From: Methylotenera versatilis 7
Lineage (GTDB): Bacteria > Pseudomonadota > Gammaproteobacteria > Burkholderiales > Methylophilaceae
Direction: 5' to 3'
DNA length: 64,000 nucleotides
NCBI RefSeq assembly: GCF_000799165.1
Contig: NZ_JUGF01000002.1
Coordinates: forward strand, 124,001-188,000
The position numbers were made by a program, and so were the translations under genes. Below are positions 42,185-51,771 of the stretch, piece after piece. Numbering within the stretch: position 1 is the first letter of the stretch; every line of letters starts with the position of its first letter. Under the pieces are notes generated by a model that saw nothing but the letters and a program-made list of their open reading frames with translations, did no database searches and had not been told where the DNA came from.

Positions 42185-43126
42185 CTACAATAATTTGATG
42201 CCTTGCAATTTTTCTGCACAAACGTCGCGAATAATACGCGCTAAATCTTTGGCATAAGGCCGTGCCATCATTTCATTGGTACCGATTGCATACAGCTCTG
42301 ACCACAAGCCTTTAGCGCCGATTGGTTTAGCCAATACATAATCATGCTCTACATAACTTTGAATACCCCAGCTTGGCAAAGCCGCCAACCCGCGGCGACT
42401 GGCGACTAATTGCATAATCGCAATGGTTAACTCGGCTGTGCGGCGATTGAAGTGAATTTCCGCAGGCTTTAATACTTGTTTGATCACATCAATGCGGTCC
42501 TCTGGCACTGGGTAAGTAATCAAGGTTTCATCACTAAAATCCTGCGCAGTTAATCGTGATTTATTACGCAAAACATGGTCGGTGGGAAGCACGGCCATAA
42601 TCTCAAATTTAAATAATGGCAGATGATTCAATAATTGCGGATGATTTGAGTTGCTGATTTTTTCAGACAGGATATTGGGCAAACCGCCAATCACCACATC
42701 TGCTTTATCCTCACCCAAAAGATGCCACGGATCGCTATGAAACCCAGCCACCAAATCGATTTCCACCTCCGGCCAGGCGCGCCTGAATGCATCCATCACT
42801 GGCGTCAGCCAGTCAAAACAGGTGTGGCATTCTAAAACGATTCTCAACTCACCAGATTGATCGCTTTTTAAGCGAATCAAATCACGCTCTGATTTCTCAA
42901 TTAACGGCAACAATTCATTGGCTAAGTCTAACAGCCGTTGCCCCGCCGGCGTAAAGCGCAAGCCTTGCGCGCTACGCTGAAAAAGCGTGATTGCATAATG
43001 CGCTTCCAGCGCACGTATTTGATGAGAAAGTGCTGATTGCGTTAAAAAGACACGCTCTGCAGCTAAGCCCAACTTGCCTGTTTCTGCGATGGCTTTTAGC
43101 GATTTTAAATGGCGGATTTCTAGCAT
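42185..43126 (-). CDS. metR: LysR-family regulator MetR
   Basis: There are 313 residues. The N-terminal winged helix (MLEIRHLKSLKAIAETGKLG, AAERVFLTQSALSHQIRALE) is typical of LysR regulators. The rest is an effector-binding domain. MetR activates metE and other methionine genes with homocysteine as co-inducer. Divergent placement from metE and a perfect MetR box in the 186-nt gap make the name secure. Confidence 0.94.
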   Translation of the reverse strand: MLEIRHLKSLKAIAETGKLGLAAERVFLTQSALSHQIRALEAHYAITLFQRSAQGLRFTPAGQRLLDLANELLPLIEKSERDLIRLKSDQSGELRIVLECHTCFDWLTPVMDAFRRAWPEVEIDLVAGFHSDPWHLLGEDKADVVIGGLPNILSEKISNSNHPQLLNHLPLFKFEIMAVLPTDHVLRNKSRLTAQDFSDETLITYPVPEDRIDVIKQVLKPAEIHFNRRTAELTIAIMQLVASRRGLAALPSWGIQSYVEHDYVLAKPIGAKGLWSELYAIGTNEMMARPYAKDLARIIRDVCAEKLQGIKLL

Positions 43127-43165: not shown

Positions 43166-43312
43166 AATTTATCACAAAAACTTTCGCTTTATTAAAAAAT
43201 TTCATCGGGACACAATGCATGCCTTGGTTAATTCGCAGAGCATGACTTAACTATAAAGTTAATTAACAAAATGAGTTAACACAAAAATTTACTGAATATT
43301 TAGGTGGTTAAA

Positions 43313-45607
43313 ATGACAACAAAAACAGTTAAGGCCCATATTTTGGGCTATCCGCGCATTGGCGCAAAACGCGAATTGAAATTTGCGCTGGAATCATTCT
43401 GGCGCCGCGAATCCTCATCTGAAGATTTGCAAAATACCGCAAAAACATTACGAACAGCACATTGGCAAAAACAGCAAGATGCCGATTTGGCATTTGTGAC
43501 CAGTAATGATTTTTCGCAGTATGACCACGTGCTAGATCACACGGTTTTATTTGGTGCACAACCAAAACGTTTCTCTAAATTGCCTTTTGGTGAAAAAAGC
43601 ATTTCGCCTGAAAACGCTTATTTCGCACTGGCGCGCGGCAATTTAGAGCAACCAGCGATGGAAATGACTAAATGGTTCGATACGAATTATCACTATATCG
43701 TGCCGGAATTAAATGCCGATACACAGTTTTCAATCAACGCGCATGATTTCTTAAACCAAATCGACGAAGCGCAAAAGCTTTCCAAAAACGTGAAACCCGT
43801 TCTACTTGGCCCAGTGAGCTTTCTATATTTAAGCAAAGCACGCGGCGTAAACAAGTTAGATTTATTGGATAACTTAGCGCAGCAATATGCGCATTTGCTG
43901 CAAGAGTTGCATGCTAAAAAAATCGAATGGCTGCAGATTGATGAACCGATTTTTGCGCTGGATTTGGATGATGCTTGGCTGAAAGCCTTTGAGCGCGCTT
44001 ATGCATGGTTTAGAACATCACGCCCAAAACTATTGTTAACCACTTATTTTGCCAATGTATCACGTTACCAAGGTCTTATCGCAACCTTGCCTGTAGATGG
44101 CATTCACTTGGATTTAGTGCGCGCGCCTGAGCAATTAGGCCCCTGGGTAAATACGATTCCGAGTTATTGGGTGTTATCGGCTGGCATCATTGATGGCCGC
44201 AATATCTGGCGCACCGATCTGGATAAAGCACTGGCATTGTTAGAGCCTTGGGCACAAAGATTAGGCGAGCGTCTGTGGGTTGCACCAAGTTGCTCACTGC
44301 TGCACACACCAGTGACTTTAGAACATGAAGTTAAATTGGATGCAGAGATTAAATCCTGGTTAGCATTCGCGGATGAAAAACTGGTTGAGCTGAATGTGAT
44401 TGCTAAAGCTTTAAACCACGGCATTGATTCTGTTGCAGCTGAACTTAGCATTTCACGTGCCGCAATCGCCTCACGTAACCATTCAGCGCGTGTGCACAAT
44501 GCCGATGTAAAAGCACGCATCAGCACACTAAACAAAGTGAACGAAAACCGCGAAAGCGCATTTAACGTTCGTCAAATCACACAGCGTACACGTTTGAACT
44601 TACCATTATTACCCACAACGACTATTGGTTCATTCCCGCAAACGCCTGATATTCGCGCCAGCAGAGCAGCGTTCAAAAAAGGCGAAATCAGCCAAACCAA
44701 GTATGATGCAGATATGGAGTCGCACATTGCCTACGCCATCCGCGAGCAAGAAGAGTTGGGCTTGGATGTGCTGGTGCATGGCGAAGCAGAACGTAACGAC
44801 ATGGTGGAATTTTTTGGCGAACAACTGGCTGGTTATGTGTTTACGCAAAATGGCTGGGTGCAAAGCTATGGCTCGCGTTGCGTGAAACCACCGGTTATTT
44901 ATGGCGATGTATACAGACCGCAAGCGATGACAGTAGAAACCGCGCGTTTTGCACAGTCGCTGTCTACACGTCCGGTAAAAGGTATGCTGACTGGCCCGAT
45001 TACCATGTTGCAGTGGTCTTTTGTACGCGATGACCAGCCACGCGAAACGACCGCGTTGCAATTGGCACTGGCGATTCGCGATGAAGTGGATGATTTGCAA
45101 AATGTAGGTATCGCAGTTATTCAGATTGATGAGCCCGCCTTGCGCGAAGGCTTACCGCTACAAAAAGCCGCTTGGGCACATTATTTGGCTTGGGCAGTGC
45201 GTGCATTCAAGCTTTCTGCCAGCGTGGCAAAAGACGATACGCAGATTCACACGCATATGTGTTACGCAGAATTTAACGATATTCTGCCAGCGATTGCTGC
45301 GATGGATGCTGATGTCATCACCATTGAGACTTCACGTTCGGCCATGGAATTATTAGATGGCTTCGGTGAGTTTTCTTATCCAAATGAAATCGGTCCAGGC
45401 GTTTACGATATTCATTCACCACGCGTACCAAGCATAGAGGCGATGGAAAAACTGGTGAAACGTGCTTTTGATGTGATTCCAGCAGAGCGGATTTGGATTA
45501 ACCCTGATTGCGGCCTGAAAACCCGCGGTTGGGATGAAACTAAGCTTGCGTTGCAAAACATGGTGACGGTTGCGAAAAACCTGCGCAAAAGTCTAGTCGC
45601 GGCTTAA
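43313..45607 (+). CDS. metE: Cobalamin-independent methionine synthase
   Basis: The 764-residue two-barrel enzyme methylates homocysteine from methyltetrahydrofolate polyglutamate using zinc. The N-terminal half begins KAHILGYPRIGAKRELKFALE. The catalytic C-terminal half holds LPTTTIGSFPQT, the zinc ligands in THMCYAEFND with a later Cys in NPDCGLKTRGW, and IQIDEPALREG. ATG 43313 is chosen: AGGTGG lies five bases upstream. A GTG at 43304 is inside that ribosome site. It is the B12-free isozyme, like the nrdAB pair further on. Confidence 0.96.
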   Translation: MTTKTVKAHILGYPRIGAKRELKFALESFWRRESSSEDLQNTAKTLRTAHWQKQQDADLAFVTSNDFSQYDHVLDHTVLFGAQPKRFSKLPFGEKSISPENAYFALARGNLEQPAMEMTKWFDTNYHYIVPELNADTQFSINAHDFLNQIDEAQKLSKNVKPVLLGPVSFLYLSKARGVNKLDLLDNLAQQYAHLLQELHAKKIEWLQIDEPIFALDLDDAWLKAFERAYAWFRTSRPKLLLTTYFANVSRYQGLIATLPVDGIHLDLVRAPEQLGPWVNTIPSYWVLSAGIIDGRNIWRTDLDKALALLEPWAQRLGERLWVAPSCSLLHTPVTLEHEVKLDAEIKSWLAFADEKLVELNVIAKALNHGIDSVAAELSISRAAIASRNHSARVHNADVKARISTLNKVNENRESAFNVRQITQRTRLNLPLLPTTTIGSFPQTPDIRASRAAFKKGEISQTKYDADMESHIAYAIREQEELGLDVLVHGEAERNDMVEFFGEQLAGYVFTQNGWVQSYGSRCVKPPVIYGDVYRPQAMTVETARFAQSLSTRPVKGMLTGPITMLQWSFVRDDQPRETTALQLALAIRDEVDDLQNVGIAVIQIDEPALREGLPLQKAAWAHYLAWAVRAFKLSASVAKDDTQIHTHMCYAEFNDILPAIAAMDADVITIETSRSAMELLDGFGEFSYPNEIGPGVYDIHSPRVPSIEAMEKLVKRAFDVIPAERIWINPDCGLKTRGWDETKLALQNMVTVAKNLRKSLVAA

Positions 45608-45632
45608 ACTGTGCTACTTCAATAGTTAAATC

Positions 45633-45667
45633 ATATTTCGGTACAAAATTGATTTGTACCGAAATAT
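45633..45667. terminator. Bidirectional stem-loop between metE and the YjiK-like gene
   Basis: Fifteen-base arms ATATTTCGGTACAAA (45633-45647) and their exact complement (45653-45667) enclose a 5-nt loop. It sits between two converging genes. The AT-rich ends can provide the weak pairing and U-run on either strand. Confidence 0.7.
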
Positions 45668-45672
45668 TGAAA

Positions 45673-46578
45673 TTAATTCTTAATCGTTTGCGGTTTAAAC
45701 GAATAGAATAAATTCGGCTCACTCATAATATAAATTCGGCCATCTGAGCCCACCGTAATACCTTCTGCCTGCGGCACGTGCTCTTTTAAGCCATGGAAAC
45801 CTTTCCACAACGCCAGCGCACCAATCGCTTTTCCATCTTCAGAATACTCTTTAATTAAACGTGATTCGTCGCTCAATAACAATAAATGGCCTGTTCCGTT
45901 GTCGTAAGCGATAGAAGACAAATCTCGCATCGCCCATTTAATGGCGGTTTCAAAAGCTTCTATTCTCTTGATTTCAATATTCAGCGGCTTGCCGATTTCT
46001 GCCTCAAAAAACCCCGTGACAGACATTACGTATTTAGGGTCGCGCTCCTTCACCACTAACAAGCGCTGATGATTATCATCCCAGGAAACGCCTTCAAAAT
46101 TTTTGTTGCCAGAAGGATTAATGCTCAGCTTGAGTTTAGGTACATTTCTCACATCGATATCAACCGAATCATCTTCGATAATGACTAAAATCAATCGATT
46201 ATCGCGCTCATCTGCGATGACATAGCGGTTATCGGCAATATGCGTGATGCCCTCCATATCGTCCACGCCAGTCACATGAATCTTTCTAATCACCTGCCCA
46301 TTCAAATCCAATTCGACTATCTGCGATTCTTGATTAAGCACGGTAAAAAGTGTGTTGGTTTTCGCGTTATGCGTAAAACCAGAGGCGTTCTTCAACTCTG
46401 GAATCACTAGCCCATCGATTTCAACTTGGTAATCTTTCAGGTTATGTGAGTGTGCCTCATGCGGATTTTTAAAAGCATGCCAGTAGTACCAAGCGATTGC
46501 TTCTAATTTCAATACATAAACAGCGATGATTAGCAAAAAAGTTGAAACAAATATCCAAAAAAACTTACTTTTATACAT
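45673..46578 (-). CDS. SdiA-regulated/YjiK-like beta-propeller protein
   Basis: There are 301 residues with an N-terminal membrane anchor or signal (about 5-21: FFWIFVSTFLLIIAVYV). A SdiA-regulated domain propeller follows: ASGFTHNAKTNTLFTVLN, VDDMEGITHIADNRYVIADE and AEGITVGSDGRIYIMSEPN. It is likely periplasmic; the ligand is unknown. ATG 46578 has an AGGA about 12 nt upstream; the longer TTG start at 46599 would include that ribosome site. A Fur-like sequence lies about 56 nt upstream. Confidence 0.85.
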   Translation of the reverse strand: MYKSKFFWIFVSTFLLIIAVYVLKLEAIAWYYWHAFKNPHEAHSHNLKDYQVEIDGLVIPELKNASGFTHNAKTNTLFTVLNQESQIVELDLNGQVIRKIHVTGVDDMEGITHIADNRYVIADERDNRLILVIIEDDSVDIDVRNVPKLKLSINPSGNKNFEGVSWDDNHQRLLVVKERDPKYVMSVTGFFEAEIGKPLNIEIKRIEAFETAIKWAMRDLSSIAYDNGTGHLLLLSDESRLIKEYSEDGKAIGALALWKGFHGLKEHVPQAEGITVGSDGRIYIMSEPNLFYSFKPQTIKN

Positions 46579-46633
46579 GTTAATTTTAAATCCTAACAAT
46601 GTTAATACGCAGTCGCCAGCTTAAAGCATTCAA

Positions 46634-46652
46634 GCGAACGATTCTCATTTTT
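46634..46652 (-). promoter_or_regulatory. Fur-box-like sequence upstream of the YjiK-like gene
   Basis: Read on the minus strand, AAAAATGAGAATCGTTCGC matches the 19-bp Fur consensus at 13 positions. It lies 56-74 nt before the start codon. A single weak match like this can occur by chance. Confidence 0.3.
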
Positions 46653-46773
46653 GCACTAAAAATTAGTGTCCTAAATTGTTTTAAGCTTTAAAAAAACTCA
46701 AAAATTAAATACTTTAAAAACATATATATAGGCAATTTTTGGCAAACATTATCAATATATTGTGTTTTAAGTA

Positions 46774-46803
46774 TTGAATTTATCCTCTATCTTGCGTTAT
46801 AGT
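46774..46803 (+). promoter_or_regulatory. Candidate sigma-70 promoter for nrdAB
   Basis: TTGAAT (46774-46779) is followed 17-18 nt later by TTATAG/TATAGT (46797-46803). Transcription would begin near 46810, right at the 5' edge of the cobalamin aptamer, which supports the choice. Confidence 0.45.
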
Positions 46804-46810
46804 CTATCCA

Positions 46811-47221
46811 CACGGTTTTCAAGTTCATCAACAAACTTGAGATAAAAGGGAATCTGGTGCGGTGCTTGTAAACGCTCAAGCATTAAATCCAGGGCTGCCC
46901 CCGCAACTGTAATCAGAGAGTTATTTGTACGCTATTTATTCATAGCATTCTGCCACTGAACATATTCTGTTTGGGAAGGCTGCAAATGATGATGACCTGA
47001 GAGCCAGGAGACCTGCCGCGTACATTTTTTGCGTCGAATTTAAGGTTAACTTAACCATAAAAATCACGCAAAACTATTTTTTATAACGTTTGAGGCGGGG
47101 TGTCCTCGGCAGATGGAAAGTCATTTTTGATTTTCTGCCATGCTGTTTTTAGTTACGCAACTTTTAAGCAAGCTGCGCTAAGTAAAGCGAACCTGCCCTT
47201 TATTAAAAAGGGAAAACCAAA
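46811..47221 (+). promoter_or_regulatory. Cobalamin (adenosylcobalamin-type) riboswitch in the nrdAB leader
   Basis: The aptamer spans about 46811-47020. Diagnostic parts appear in order: AAAGGGAA with GGTGCGGTGCTTG, the core GCTGCCCCCGCAACTGTAA (46894-46912), and the B12 box AGCCAGGAGACCTGCC (47002-47017). The region from about 47090 to 47221 is the likely expression platform. It holds a GGCAGA/TCTGCC hairpin (47108-47139), then CCCTTT (47196-47201) complementary to AAAGGG (47207-47212), the nrdA ribosome site. Cobalamin binding would be expected to reduce nrdA translation. Apart from the promoter above and this riboswitch, the 643-nt gap 46579-47221 shows nothing else clear. Confidence 0.93.
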
Positions 47222-50044
47222 ATGGATGACATAAGACCATCTCCAACTGCTGATTCAGCACAATCCAGCTTATTACCTACACTGCAAGTGATTCGCCGAA
47301 ATGGCGCTGCTGTCACGTTTAATCTCGATAAAATCTCTATCGCCATCACCAAAGCTTTTTTAGCGGTGGAAGGCAATCAAAGCGCGGCTTCTCAGCGTGT
47401 GCGCGACCAAGTGGTTACTTTAAGCCAACTGGTGAACAACGCACTGATGCGCCGCCTGCCTGCGGGCGGTTCAATCCATATTGAAGACATTCAGGATCAA
47501 GTGGAGTTAGCGCTTATGCGCAATGGCAATCACGATGTAGCGCGTGCATACGTGCTTTACCGTGAAAAACGCAATGCAGAACGTGCTGCCGAAAAAGCCA
47601 GTCATGCCAGTGCAGAATCTCAGCATGCACTTAACGTGAATATCAACGGCACATTAACGCCGTTAAACATCAAAGAACTCAATGCGATGGTTAGCGAGGC
47701 TTGCCTGAATTTGGGGGAGGAAGTAAGTGCTAGCTTAGTGGTAGAGCAAGCCGTGCGTGATTTATACGATGGCATTCCATTTACCGAAGTGTACAAAGCA
47801 CTGATTCTATCGGCGCGTAGTTTGATTGAAACCGAGCCTGCCTACAATTATGTGACAGCCCGTTTGCAACTGTATTTAGTACGCGCCGAAGTATTAGGTG
47901 AGCGTATCAGCCATGCCGAAATGGATGTGCATTACGTAGAATATTTCCCGCGTTATATCAAAATGGGGATTGACGCAGAATTGCTAGACCAGCGTTTAGC
48001 GCAGTTCGATTTAAGCAAATTAGCCGCAGCAATTAGAAAAGAACGCGATTTCCAATTTGGTTATCTAGGTATTCAAACGCTGTATGACCGCTACTTTTTG
48101 CATATTGAAGAGCTCCGTATCGAATTGCCGCAAATCTTCTTTATGCGTGTTGCGATGGGCTTGGCGATAAACGAGATTGACCGCGAAGCGCGTGCGATTG
48201 AATTCTATAACGTATTAAGTACGTTTGATTTTATGAGTTCGACGCCCACATTATTTAATGCTGGTACATTGCATTCACAATTATCCAGCTGCTACCTCAC
48301 CACTGTCAGTGATGATCTTGAAGGCATCTACCAAGGCATTAAAGAAAACGCCTTACTACAAAAATATGCGGGTGGTTTAGGCAACGATTGGACGCCGGTG
48401 CGCTCACTGGGCGCCCGTATCAAAGGCACCAATGGTAAGAGCCAGGGTGTGATTCCATTCTTAAAAGTGGTAAATGATACTGCTGTTGCAGTTAACCAAG
48501 GTGGCAAACGTAAAGGCGCAGTGTGCGGCTATTTAGAAACCTGGCATTTAGATATTGAAGAGTTTTTAGATTTACGTAAAAACACCGGTGATGATCGCCG
48601 TCGCACGCACGACATGAATACTGCACACTGGATTCCAGATCTATTTATGCGCCGCGTGACTGAGGCTGGTGATTGGACATTGTTCTCACCTTCTGACGTT
48701 CCGGATTTGCACGATAAATACGGCAAAGCGTTTGAAACGGCTTACGTGGAATATGAACGCCGTGCTGAAAATGGTGAAATCAAGCTATTCAAGAAAATCC
48801 CTGCCTTACAAATGTGGCGCAAGATGCTTTCTATGCTGTTTGAAACTGGCCATCCGTGGATCACATTCAAAGATCCGTGCAATATTCGTTCGCCTCAGCA
48901 GCATGTTGGCGTGGTGCATAGCTCAAACCTTTGTACTGAAATTACGCTTAACACTTCTGACACTGAAATCGCGGTTTGCAATTTAGGCTCTATAAACTTA
49001 TTGCAACATTTAACCGAAGTTAACGGCAAGTTGGTGTTAGATAACGACAAATTGCAATCGACGATTAAAGTCGGCATGCGTATGCTGGATAACGTGGTTG
49101 ATATCAATTTCTACCCGGTTGGCAAAGCACGCAATGCCAACACACGTCATCGCCCTGTTGGCATGGGCATTATGGGATTCCAGAATTGCCTGCATGCAAT
49201 GCGCATTCCTTACGCCAGCATGGAAGCAGTGGAGTTTGCTGACCGCGCCATGGAAGCGGTTTGCTACAACGCCTACTACGCTTCTACTGTGCTAGCAGAA
49301 GAGCGCGGCGCTTATTCCAGCTTTAAAGGCAGCTTATGGGATCAAGGCATTCTGCCATTAGATACATTGGATTTACTGCTGAGCGAGCGCGGCGGCAATG
49401 TGGAGGTAGACAGAAGCAAAACATTGGATTGGGATGCACTCAGAACGCGCATTCAAAAAGTCGGCATGCGCAACTCAAATTGCGTAGCGATTGCACCAAC
49501 AGCCACGATTTCCAATATTGTTGGCGTATCAGCAAGTATTGAACCCGAATATCAAAACTTGTACGTCAAATCTAACTTGTCAGGCGAATTTACCATTGTG
49601 AATGAGCAATTGGTAAACGATTTGAAAGCACGTGGTTTATGGGATGCAGTGATGGTTTCTGACTTGAAATATTTTGATGGCTCACTGCAAAAAATCGAAC
49701 GCGTACCGGCAGATTTAAAACAGCTTTATGCCACTGCATTTGATGTGGATCCAACATGGTTAATCGAAGCGGCAGCGCGTCGCCAAAAATGGATAGACCA
49801 GGCGCAATCGCTGAATCTGTATTTTGCGGTACCGTCTGGCAAAAAACTGAACGACACTTATCTATTGGCTTGGCAGCGCGGATTAAAAACCACTTACTAT
49901 TTGCGCTCATTAGGCGCGACGGCAGCGGAGAAATCTACTGGCTCAGGCGGTGAATTGAACGCAGTTTCTTCAGGTAGCAACGTGCAGGAAGAAGCGCCAA
50001 AAATGTGCAGTATCGATAACCCTGAATGCGAATCTTGCCAATAG
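47222..50044 (+). CDS. nrdA: Class Ia ribonucleoside-diphosphate reductase, alpha subunit
   Basis: The 940-residue catalytic subunit reduces NDPs to dNDPs under aerobic conditions using a radical from NrdB. An N-terminal ATP cone (about 20-110, VIRRNGAAVTFNLDKI) is followed by a second cone-like stretch (about 138-225). The barrel contains NLCTEITLN, GSINLLQ and PTATISNIVG (phosphate loop). The redox-active C-terminal cysteines are in PECESCQ. Length is above the E. coli protein (761) because of the doubled cone region. The B12 riboswitch upstream implies that a cobalamin-dependent class II reductase is encoded elsewhere. Confidence 0.95.
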   Translation: MDDIRPSPTADSAQSSLLPTLQVIRRNGAAVTFNLDKISIAITKAFLAVEGNQSAASQRVRDQVVTLSQLVNNALMRRLPAGGSIHIEDIQDQVELALMRNGNHDVARAYVLYREKRNAERAAEKASHASAESQHALNVNINGTLTPLNIKELNAMVSEACLNLGEEVSASLVVEQAVRDLYDGIPFTEVYKALILSARSLIETEPAYNYVTARLQLYLVRAEVLGERISHAEMDVHYVEYFPRYIKMGIDAELLDQRLAQFDLSKLAAAIRKERDFQFGYLGIQTLYDRYFLHIEELRIELPQIFFMRVAMGLAINEIDREARAIEFYNVLSTFDFMSSTPTLFNAGTLHSQLSSCYLTTVSDDLEGIYQGIKENALLQKYAGGLGNDWTPVRSLGARIKGTNGKSQGVIPFLKVVNDTAVAVNQGGKRKGAVCGYLETWHLDIEEFLDLRKNTGDDRRRTHDMNTAHWIPDLFMRRVTEAGDWTLFSPSDVPDLHDKYGKAFETAYVEYERRAENGEIKLFKKIPALQMWRKMLSMLFETGHPWITFKDPCNIRSPQQHVGVVHSSNLCTEITLNTSDTEIAVCNLGSINLLQHLTEVNGKLVLDNDKLQSTIKVGMRMLDNVVDINFYPVGKARNANTRHRPVGMGIMGFQNCLHAMRIPYASMEAVEFADRAMEAVCYNAYYASTVLAEERGAYSSFKGSLWDQGILPLDTLDLLLSERGGNVEVDRSKTLDWDALRTRIQKVGMRNSNCVAIAPTATISNIVGVSASIEPEYQNLYVKSNLSGEFTIVNEQLVNDLKARGLWDAVMVSDLKYFDGSLQKIERVPADLKQLYATAFDVDPTWLIEAAARRQKWIDQAQSLNLYFAVPSGKKLNDTYLLAWQRGLKTTYYLRSLGATAAEKSTGSGGELNAVSSGSNVQEEAPKMCSIDNPECESCQ

Positions 50045-50197: not shown

Positions 50198-51334
50198 ATG
50201 CTTTCATTTGAAGATGATATTGTTATATCACCAAACAAATCACAAACAACACCAAACTTAACCGTGGTGACTGACGTAGAAATCAAACCTGTAGCTGCCA
50301 ATCAGCCATCGCATTCAGGCCGTGTGAACGCATCAGATAAGCGGATGATTAATGGCCAAACTGACGTCAATCAATTAGTACCGTTTAAATATCACTGGGC
50401 TTGGGATAAATACTTGGCTGGCTGCGCCAATCACTGGATGCCGCAGGAAGTTTCCATGAGCCGCGACATTGCGCAGTGGAAAGACAGCACAGCGCTAACA
50501 GACGATGAGCGTTTAATCGTGAAGCGTAATTTAGGTTTTTTCACTACAGCCGATTCGCTGGCAGCAAATAATATCGTGCTGGGAACCTATCGCCATATTA
50601 CGGCGCCAGAATGCCGTCAATACTTGCTGCGCCAAGGTTTTGAAGAAGCGATTCACACCCACGCTTATCAATATATTGTGGAAAGCCTGGGCTTGGATGA
50701 GTCTGAAGTTTTTAATGCTTATCAAGAAGTCGCAAGTATTAAAGACAAAGACGATTTTCTGATTCCATTTATCAACATTTTAACTGATCCACAATTTAAA
50801 ACTGGTACGCCAGAAGCAGATCAGCAGCTATTACGCTCATTAATCGTATTTGCCTGCATTATGGAAGGCCTGTTTTTCTATGTCGGCTTTGTGCAGATTT
50901 TAGCGCTTGGTCGCCAAAACAAGATGCAGGGCGCGGCAGAGCAATATCAATATATTCTGCGCGATGAATCCATGCACTGCAATTTTGGTATTGACGTGAT
51001 TAACACCATCAAGCTGGAAAATCCACATTTGTGGACAGCTGAATTCCGCGAGGAAATTAAAGGCCTAATGCAACATGGTGTAGAGCTTGAATATCGCTAT
51101 GCAGAAGCAACCATGCCACGCGGCGTGCTGGGCTTGAATGCAACCATGTTTAAAGAATACCTGCGTTTTATCGCAAACCGTCGTTGCCAGCAAATTGGGC
51201 TGGATGTGCTGTACCCAGGCGCAACAAATCCTTTCCCGTGGATGAGCGAAATGATGGATTTGAAAAAAGAGAAAAACTTTTTTGAGACGCGCGTAACGGA
51301 ATATCAAACCGGTGGCGCATTAAGCTGGGATTAA
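50198..51334 (+). CDS. nrdB: Class Ia ribonucleoside-diphosphate reductase, beta subunit
   Basis: The 378-residue diiron radical protein generates the tyrosyl radical for NrdA. Metal ligands are visible in [15 protein letters not shown] (E and H), in the helix [10 protein letters not shown], and in the [13 protein letters not shown] segment. The long N-terminus (about 60 residues, Asn and Thr rich) precedes the core, which starts near [12 protein letters not shown]. An AAGGAAAAA ribosome site precedes the ATG. It is 153 nt downstream of nrdA and presumably on the same riboswitch-controlled transcript. Confidence 0.95.
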
Positions 51335-51441: not shown

Positions 51442-51771
51442 ATGGCTTACGTATTTAAAAATGCAAGCGGCACTGTGATTGCTGCAAGTGAATCTGAGAG
51501 TTTTGGTGATGGCTGGGTATTTGTTGAAGACAATAGCAAAGAATATCTGGAATTTCTAGAGCAGACACTTGCTAAAAACTCATCATTCCGCGAGAGCGAT
51601 ATTCAACTGGCGCGCGTGCTGGAAGACCTGATCAGCATATTAATTGAAGGCAATGTGATTAGATTTACCGATTTTCCAATTGCCGCGCAAAAACGCCTGA
51701 ATGAAAGACAAAGTATGCGTAAAAAAACGCAGCTTTCAACACTGGCAGACGAGATTACCAGTAAAAATTAA
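51442..51771 (+). CDS. Conserved small protein of unknown function
   Basis: The 109-residue acidic cytoplasmic protein has an N-terminal beta-hairpin (AYVFKNASGTVIAAS) and a helical remainder (RVLEDLISILIEGNVIRFTDFP). Similar proteins in betaproteobacteria are often labelled 'tryptophan synthase beta-like', but no PLP site is present and that name should not be read as a function. It follows nrdB by 107 nt on the same strand. Confidence 0.75.
   Translation: MAYVFKNASGTVIAASESESFGDGWVFVEDNSKEYLEFLEQTLAKNSSFRESDIQLARVLEDLISILIEGNVIRFTDFPIAAQKRLNERQSMRKKTQLSTLADEITSKN

Follow-up and report, generated by a model that had tools for sequence, protein, structure and literature searches.

Does the leader of the class Ia ribonucleotide reductase (RNR) operon of Methylotenera versatilis 7 carry a cobalamin riboswitch, as the first-pass annotation of this DNA proposed, and, if so, how would it act? 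The stretch analysed, which we call the window (64,000 nt), is C1:124001-188000 of a 2.50-Mb genome that is 99.99% complete. When the whole window was scanned against Rfam with cmscan, the cobalamin riboswitch model RF00174 was the sole match at the gathering thresholds, scoring 109.5 bits against a gathering threshold of 31.5 with an E value of 1.6e-26. The match spans positions 1-189 of the 189-position model, and a score of this size over the full model rules out a chance or partial aptamer match. The aptamer lies among the following features:

42185-43126, minus strand: LysR-type regulator beside metE, called metR by position only
43304-45607, plus strand: metE, cobalamin-independent methionine synthase, by family match; the upstream neighbour in many relatives
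46796-47034, plus strand: aptamer, by the Rfam covariance model (RF00174); recovered in a whole-genome search too
46894-46909, plus strand: conserved core GCTGCCCCCGCAACTG, which by comparison with known structures we take to be the L5 element (5′ half of a kissing loop); complementary to L13 CGGGGTG
47002-47017, plus strand: B12 box AGCCAGGAGACCTGCC, by sequence position
47222-50044, plus strand: nrdA, class Ia RNR large subunit, 940 aa; PRK07207 1691.6 bits, with PF02867, PF00317 and one ATP-cone by Pfam
50198-51334, plus strand: nrdB, class I RNR small subunit, 378 aa; PRK07209 685.1 bits

The riboswitch claim thus passed its covariance-model check, and the B12 box stands exactly where it had been placed. 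The core GCCCCCGCAACTG, within the L5 stretch, and the box are both intact in the window, and P1 of the aptamer pairs poorly. The interval originally marked, 46811-47221, begins near the expected transcript start and takes in the aptamer, which by Rfam ends at 47034, together with the expression platform; a spacer of 187 nt separates the aptamer end from the nrdA start. The downstream genes form the class Ia operon that had been read there: both are class I by NCBIfam, and the window NrdA scores 384.3 bits against the NrdJ model TIGR02504, under the cut-off of 399.95. No riboswitch of metE's own was found in the window by the Rfam scan at gathering thresholds. Neither Pfam nor NCBIfam matches a 109-aa ORF after nrdB (window 51442-51771); it has a homologue behind nrdB in G022 and another where the G048 flank ends.

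A cobalamin switch at this operon had led to the prediction of a class II, B12-dependent reductase in the same genome, and searching the genome with PF02867 returned two RNR large subunits, NrdA and NrdJ. The NrdJ gene lies at C1:651467-653116 on the minus strand (TIGR02504, 566.5 bits); its 725-aa product and a separate TSCPD protein together make up a class II enzyme in split form. An ORF reading like a PQQ methanol dehydrogenase (L006 518-2407) lies about 6 kb away from nrdJ. RF00174 matched twice genome-wide, at the nrdA leader and at C1:921623-921852 (91.5 bits). Like the nrdA riboswitch, the second one has the loop CGGGGTG, set in a P13-like hairpin (ACCG-CGGGGTGA-CGGT), but it precedes a btuB-like receptor (TIGR01779, 472 bits, under the cut-off of 599.7) and not an RNR. 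The receptor is followed by a protein without an NCBIfam match, BluB (237.5 bits) and a cobU-like gene, and cobC-, cobS- and cobT-like genes lie near the locus, these three and the cobU-like gene being named by reading ORFs alone. A look for B12 synthesis or btu genes, advised at the outset, turned up a btuB-like receptor behind its own cobalamin riboswitch and salvage genes; CbiC was not found in the genome, though the lack of a single family argues only thinly against de novo synthesis. Scavenging of corrinoids is probable. MetH is present in the genome and MetE in the window, and two enzymes probably each exist in a B12-dependent and a B12-independent version.

The arrangement is widely conserved in the family, which rules out a single-genome oddity. 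The same 120 Methylophilaceae genomes were searched for RF00174 and for PF02867, with matches in 113 and 114 of them, respectively. By PF02867 score and matched range, the class I nrdA genes were sorted into type A (about 625 bits, like the window's; n = 27) and type B (about 450 bits; n = 18), fragmentary matches (such as those in G028, G039, G051, G061 and G108) being kept outside the classification, and no genome among the 120 holds both types. Among the 150 riboswitch matches listed, one lies upstream on the same strand for 27/27 type A and 16/18 type B genes, and for type A the aptamer ends 1154-1344 nt before the start of the domain. For the type B gene of G010, cmscan found a weak riboswitch of 411 nt (61.3 bits), which brings type B to 17/18 and the Methylophilaceae class I nrdA genes with a riboswitch upstream to 44 of 45, with G043 as the exception. 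In the G010 riboswitch (L144 5367-5777), the stretch from core to B12 box is about 190 nt longer than in its relatives. The possibility that type B, at about 450 bits, is class II or class Ib was rejected on the gene tested, that of G036, which is a class 1a NrdA (PRK09103, 1512.6 bits) with a class Ia NrdB (PRK09101, 736.8 bits); the other 17 were typed by PF02867 score, matched range and place only.

The 44 other class I genomes have two or more large-subunit matches each by per-genome counts, against one in G043. Among the matches listed, the second large subunit is an NrdJ-score match in 42 of the 44, with none listed for G064 and G073, and TIGR02504 identified NrdJ in G000, G010, G030 and G053. 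No class I-score match is seen in 69 of the 114 genomes for which PF02867 gave a hit, some of these assemblies being incomplete. For OM43 strain H5P1, PMC9004378 describes only one cobalamin riboswitch, at btuB.

As seen in 20 flanks compared with the window, metE precedes the riboswitch (or, in the case of G043, nrdA) in 9/11 type A and 6/9 type B cases; metR often comes ahead of metE, and other ORFs sometimes intervene (several in G021). The flanks of G001, G002, G036, G062 and G081 are arranged differently, metR-metE following nrdB in G002, and no nrdB was recognised in the G011 flank. A ferredoxin-like gene, named from its sequence, follows nrdB in 9/9 type B flanks. Two class Ia types, PRK07207 in the window and PRK09103 in the one type B gene tested, thus take up equivalent positions downstream of the riboswitch.

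The exception, G043, has no riboswitch at nrdA by cmscan and no cobalamin match there even at E 10 with Rfam; the low-threshold search of its leader gave two matches, both far under their families' cut-offs and neither of them cobalamin. TIGR02504 found no NrdJ in this genome, and the class I enzyme is the only RNR large subunit found by PF02867, which makes G043 the only one of the 45 class I genomes with a single large subunit. Its leader aligns with those of relatives at P13 and the Shine-Dalgarno (SD) region, and the core and box are scrambled, the lost part aligning loosely; a promoter-like and an NrdR-box-like stretch are readable by eye in its upstream sequence. In this one case, decay of the B12 lock and absence of NrdJ go together. 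The G043 metE (L167 4847-5911) matches MetE residues 11-372 only, and this organism may rely for its methionine on MetH and B12, although its RNR no longer needs B12. G043 looks like a natural knock-out backing the functional reading of the riboswitch.

These observations bear on whether the riboswitch might be a relic without present function. We regard it as highly improbable, because the riboswitch is kept at 44/45 class I nrdA genes of two types, has clearly decayed in the one genome without NrdJ, and has its core and box intact in the window. The switching between the two reductases by cobalamin supply that had been predicted is supported by the family conservation and by the lone exception.

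Between the aptamer and nrdA, we distinguish the following elements:

47092-47107, plus strand: P13/L13 hairpin GAGG-CGGGGTGT-CCTC, 3′ half of the kissing loop and proposed antisequestor strand; outside the Rfam model
47108-47139, plus strand: P14 (our name), a hairpin that separates P13 from the SD region; its stem sequence changes and mostly stays paired
47192-47197, plus strand: CCTGCC, with which P13/L13 is proposed to pair when no ligand is bound; it runs into the 5′ arm of the SD hairpin
47196-47212, plus strand: predicted SD-sequestering hairpin CCCTTT-attaa-AAAGGG, with the SD AGGGA at 47209-47213

The P13 5′ arm and L13 together, GAGGCGGGGTG, are found in the window and in 39/39 of the other Methylophilaceae riboswitch leaders fetched (of 43). 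The loop CGGGGTG is kept with a different stem in L032, L060 (Zoogloea), L063 (Azonexus), L076 and the btuB leader of the window genome. L5 (CCCCCG) is complementary to L13 (CGGGGTG); both are conserved, with hardly any variation in either loop. When RNAalifold was run on the platform alignment, it placed P13 in a register different from GAGG/CCTC, within invariant columns. The SD is predicted to be buried (mean unpaired probability below 0.3) in 38/40 riboswitch leaders, comprising 26/26 of type A and 12/14 of type B, versus 22/71 riboswitch-less nrdA leaders (Mann-Whitney 1.2e-9, with rows that are related and include some near-copies); the control of 71 excludes 2 of 73 leaders without a start having an SD, and its start codons were picked by rule. 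The SD region of the window folds modestly better than shuffles (z −2.0), with mean z values of −1.1 for type A and −0.3 for type B, and the whole window platform is not clearly distinguished from shuffles (z −1.17).

From these features, we consider it likely that the nrdAB leader is a cobalamin OFF riboswitch, most likely for adenosylcobalamin, in which an L5-L13 kissing loop hides the SD and an antisequestor forms when no ligand is bound. When scavenged B12 is plentiful, the aptamer would bind it, L5 would kiss L13 and P13 would be held closed. With P13 closed, the hairpin CCCUUU/AAAGGG would hide the nrdA SD and stop translation of nrdAB, so that the class Ia enzyme would not be made and the B12-dependent class II NrdJ would supply deoxynucleotides. 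When B12 is scarce, the kissing loop would fail and the P13/L13 strand GGCGGG would pair with CCUGCC at 47192-47197; with this pairing the SD hairpin could not form, and nrdAB would be translated.

As to the ligand, full-model matches to RF00174 go with adenosylcobalamin binders, and NrdJ uses adenosylcobalamin, with which the name of TIGR02504 agrees. Both points speak against an aptamer that senses mainly some other corrinoid (methyl- or hydroxocobalamin, or another cobamide), and we think such an aptamer improbable here, even with corrinoid riboswitches described as capable of broad sensitivity (PMC9600662). The sign of regulation that we infer, OFF, fits the known logic by which the B12-independent isozyme is repressed (PMC545781, PMC3766115), isozymes of B12-dependent enzymes being a category of the cobalamin regulon in the latter source.

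The ligand-free antisequestor step is weakly supported by predicted pairing. In 39/41 leaders (5 duplicates dropped), P13/L13 pairs best with a run of pyrimidines lying 25-31 nt ahead of the start codon, CCTGCC in the window. When compared with dinucleotide shuffles, pairing between P13/L13 and this linker is singly significant in 5/41 leaders, all of type B, and gives a combined z of −4.8 over leaders that are related; the window's own pairing is unremarkable (p 0.395). In G043, L13 has become AAGG and is predicted to form 10 pairs with the linker CCTTG (−16.4 kcal/mol). An unaltered P13/L13 would pair with the G043 linker nearly equally (−15.3) through G-U pairs, and G071 has a TCTTG linker alongside an unaltered L13. 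The linker pairing is thus kept in G043, and compensation is not proven.

P14 invites a different account of the same riboswitch and the same logic, in which regulation acts on transcription, the ligand letting the 47108-47139 hairpin and a U-rich tail terminate, either intrinsically or with the aid of Rho. The hairpin is followed by ATGCTGTTTTTAG in the window and by ATGCTGTTTTTTG in L133, and its stem covaries: 6 of 13 predicted pairs are changed on both sides among 21 leaders, with some pairs broken in up to 7. In P. megaterium metE, moreover, a P13 strand has a terminator strand as its alternative partner (PMC10653944). Against this, the terminator scan of 45400-47400 found no site on the plus strand, so that P14 is not a terminator by the scan used; many relatives have GGTCTTTG in place of the U run, and the predicted SD hairpin is kept instead. 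We accordingly view termination as unlikely, and a translational switch at the SD as the preferred reading. P14 is not part of the SD hairpin, and its flanks, CGGCAGAT and GCCATGCTGGTCTTT, are conserved in many type A leaders.

Two further sites stand at the head of the transcript:

46753-46765, minus strand: NrdR-box-like site ACACAATATATTG, 5′ of the promoter; 0 mismatches to the NrdR-box consensus used
46774-46803, plus strand: sigma-70-like promoter TTGAAT-18-TATAGT, by consensus match; similar −10 stretches in most of the relatives' leaders compared

The promoter scan found 3 sites against 4.8 expected from shuffles, so the case for the window promoter is made by the similar stretches in relatives. 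A transcript start is expected near 46810. NrdR-box-like stretches (e.g., CAATATATTGTGTTTT) precede the promoter in most nrdA leaders compared, and the window genome has an NrdR gene (191.8 bits); dual control by NrdR and B12 is plausible on these signs. By eye, a second, weaker NrdR-box-like stretch, AAACATATATATAG, lies about 32 nt upstream of the clear one (window 46719-46765). An NrdR-box-like site with 1 mismatch is also present upstream of nrdJ (L006 10570).

Beyond the family, we sampled 80 named nrdA loci and sought the core and box upstream. Both were found in 7/80 (6/79 without the Methylophilaceae locus L008), and Rfam confirmed 7/7: L008; L007 and L009 of Methylococcaceae methanotrophs; L060 of Zoogloea; L063 of Azonexus; and L032 and L076 of unplaced betaproteobacteria. 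Rescanning 9 of the 73 loci negative for core and box with Rfam gave no riboswitch (L044 and L075 have short upstream DNA), and nothing came of listing the ORFs at L002, a short locus. The threshold for calling NrdJ was set at 450 bits because NrdA also scores near 400. An NrdJ-score match was present in 7/7 riboswitch-bearing genomes (partial in L032) versus 22/43 of the others tested, 50 of the 80 being covered (one-sided Fisher 0.016, by hand, with genomes that are related). Since 22 of the 29 NrdJ genomes in this named set have no riboswitch at nrdA, the riboswitch is not a general need of such genomes.

In a tree of 95 type-A NrdA proteins (quick method, midpoint root), all 22 riboswitch-bearing rows used form one group with an SH-aLRT of 98, and the two methanotroph NrdA proteins branch inside the Methylophilaceae. 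The simplest reading would be that riboswitch and nrdA came together once and that the pair was later transferred to the methanotrophs. The exact 19-nt P13 pattern, sought in 369 genomes of the class, matched in the window genome only, in a sparse multi-family sample that drew no other member of the family.

B12 riboswitches on B12-independent RNRs are already known. In Streptomyces, a B12 riboswitch reportedly precedes nrdABS (Borovok, 2006, cited in PMC5962746), likewise a class Ia operon, in genomes that have a class II NrdJ too; unlike here, the title of that work speaks of transcription control, whereas the present platform looks translational, and the phylum is another. B12-elements also lie upstream of nrdDG in the delta-proteobacteria Desulfovibrio vulgaris and Desulfuromonas, and such control was predicted beyond actinomycetes by 2004; as here, a B12-independent RNR with predicted B12 repression coexists with NrdJ, but the enzyme is NrdDG and not class Ia NrdAB (PMC545781). 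The P. megaterium metE corrinoid riboswitch resembles the scheme proposed here: P13 is stabilised by kissing of L5 and L13, one P13 strand can pair elsewhere in the expression platform, and a B12-independent isozyme is repressed. It differs in controlling metE through a terminator and not nrdA through an SD hairpin, and its P13 pairs alternatively by the 3′ side, whereas we propose the 5′ side and loop (PMC10653944). In the open-licence PMC literature covered, which includes PMC9004378, PMC2864759, PMC6759758, PMC8123684, PMC3766115, PMC4465626, PMC545781, PMC2667541, PMC5962746, PMC6461909 and PMC9600662, we came across no nrdAB operon of Methylophilaceae or methanotrophs with a cobalamin riboswitch; supplementary regulon tables may list one. 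As far as these searches reach, the conservation through the Methylophilaceae, the nrdAB exchange behind the switch, the transfer to methanotrophs and the decay without NrdJ are new.

Taken together, these results suggest a wider picture to which we give roughly even chances. In it, the B12 riboswitch of the Methylophilaceae would be a standing lock on class I RNR that stayed in place, in many cases beside metE at one and the same locus, as one class Ia type of nrdAB was exchanged for another behind it. The lock would travel with nrdAB into methanotrophic gammaproteobacteria, and the aptamer would decay after NrdJ loss, as repressing the sole RNR would be fatal. P13/L13 would serve as a two-way switch, forming either the kissing loop or the antisequestor, and the leader would also be under NrdR. 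The locus offers a clean case, open to testing, in which the supply of a cofactor would decide which isozyme performs an essential step: through one RNA, a probable B12 scavenger would choose between a B12-independent and a B12-dependent RNR. Given how many of the family's genomes show no class I-score match, the locus may mark those methylotrophs able to divide without their neighbours' B12.
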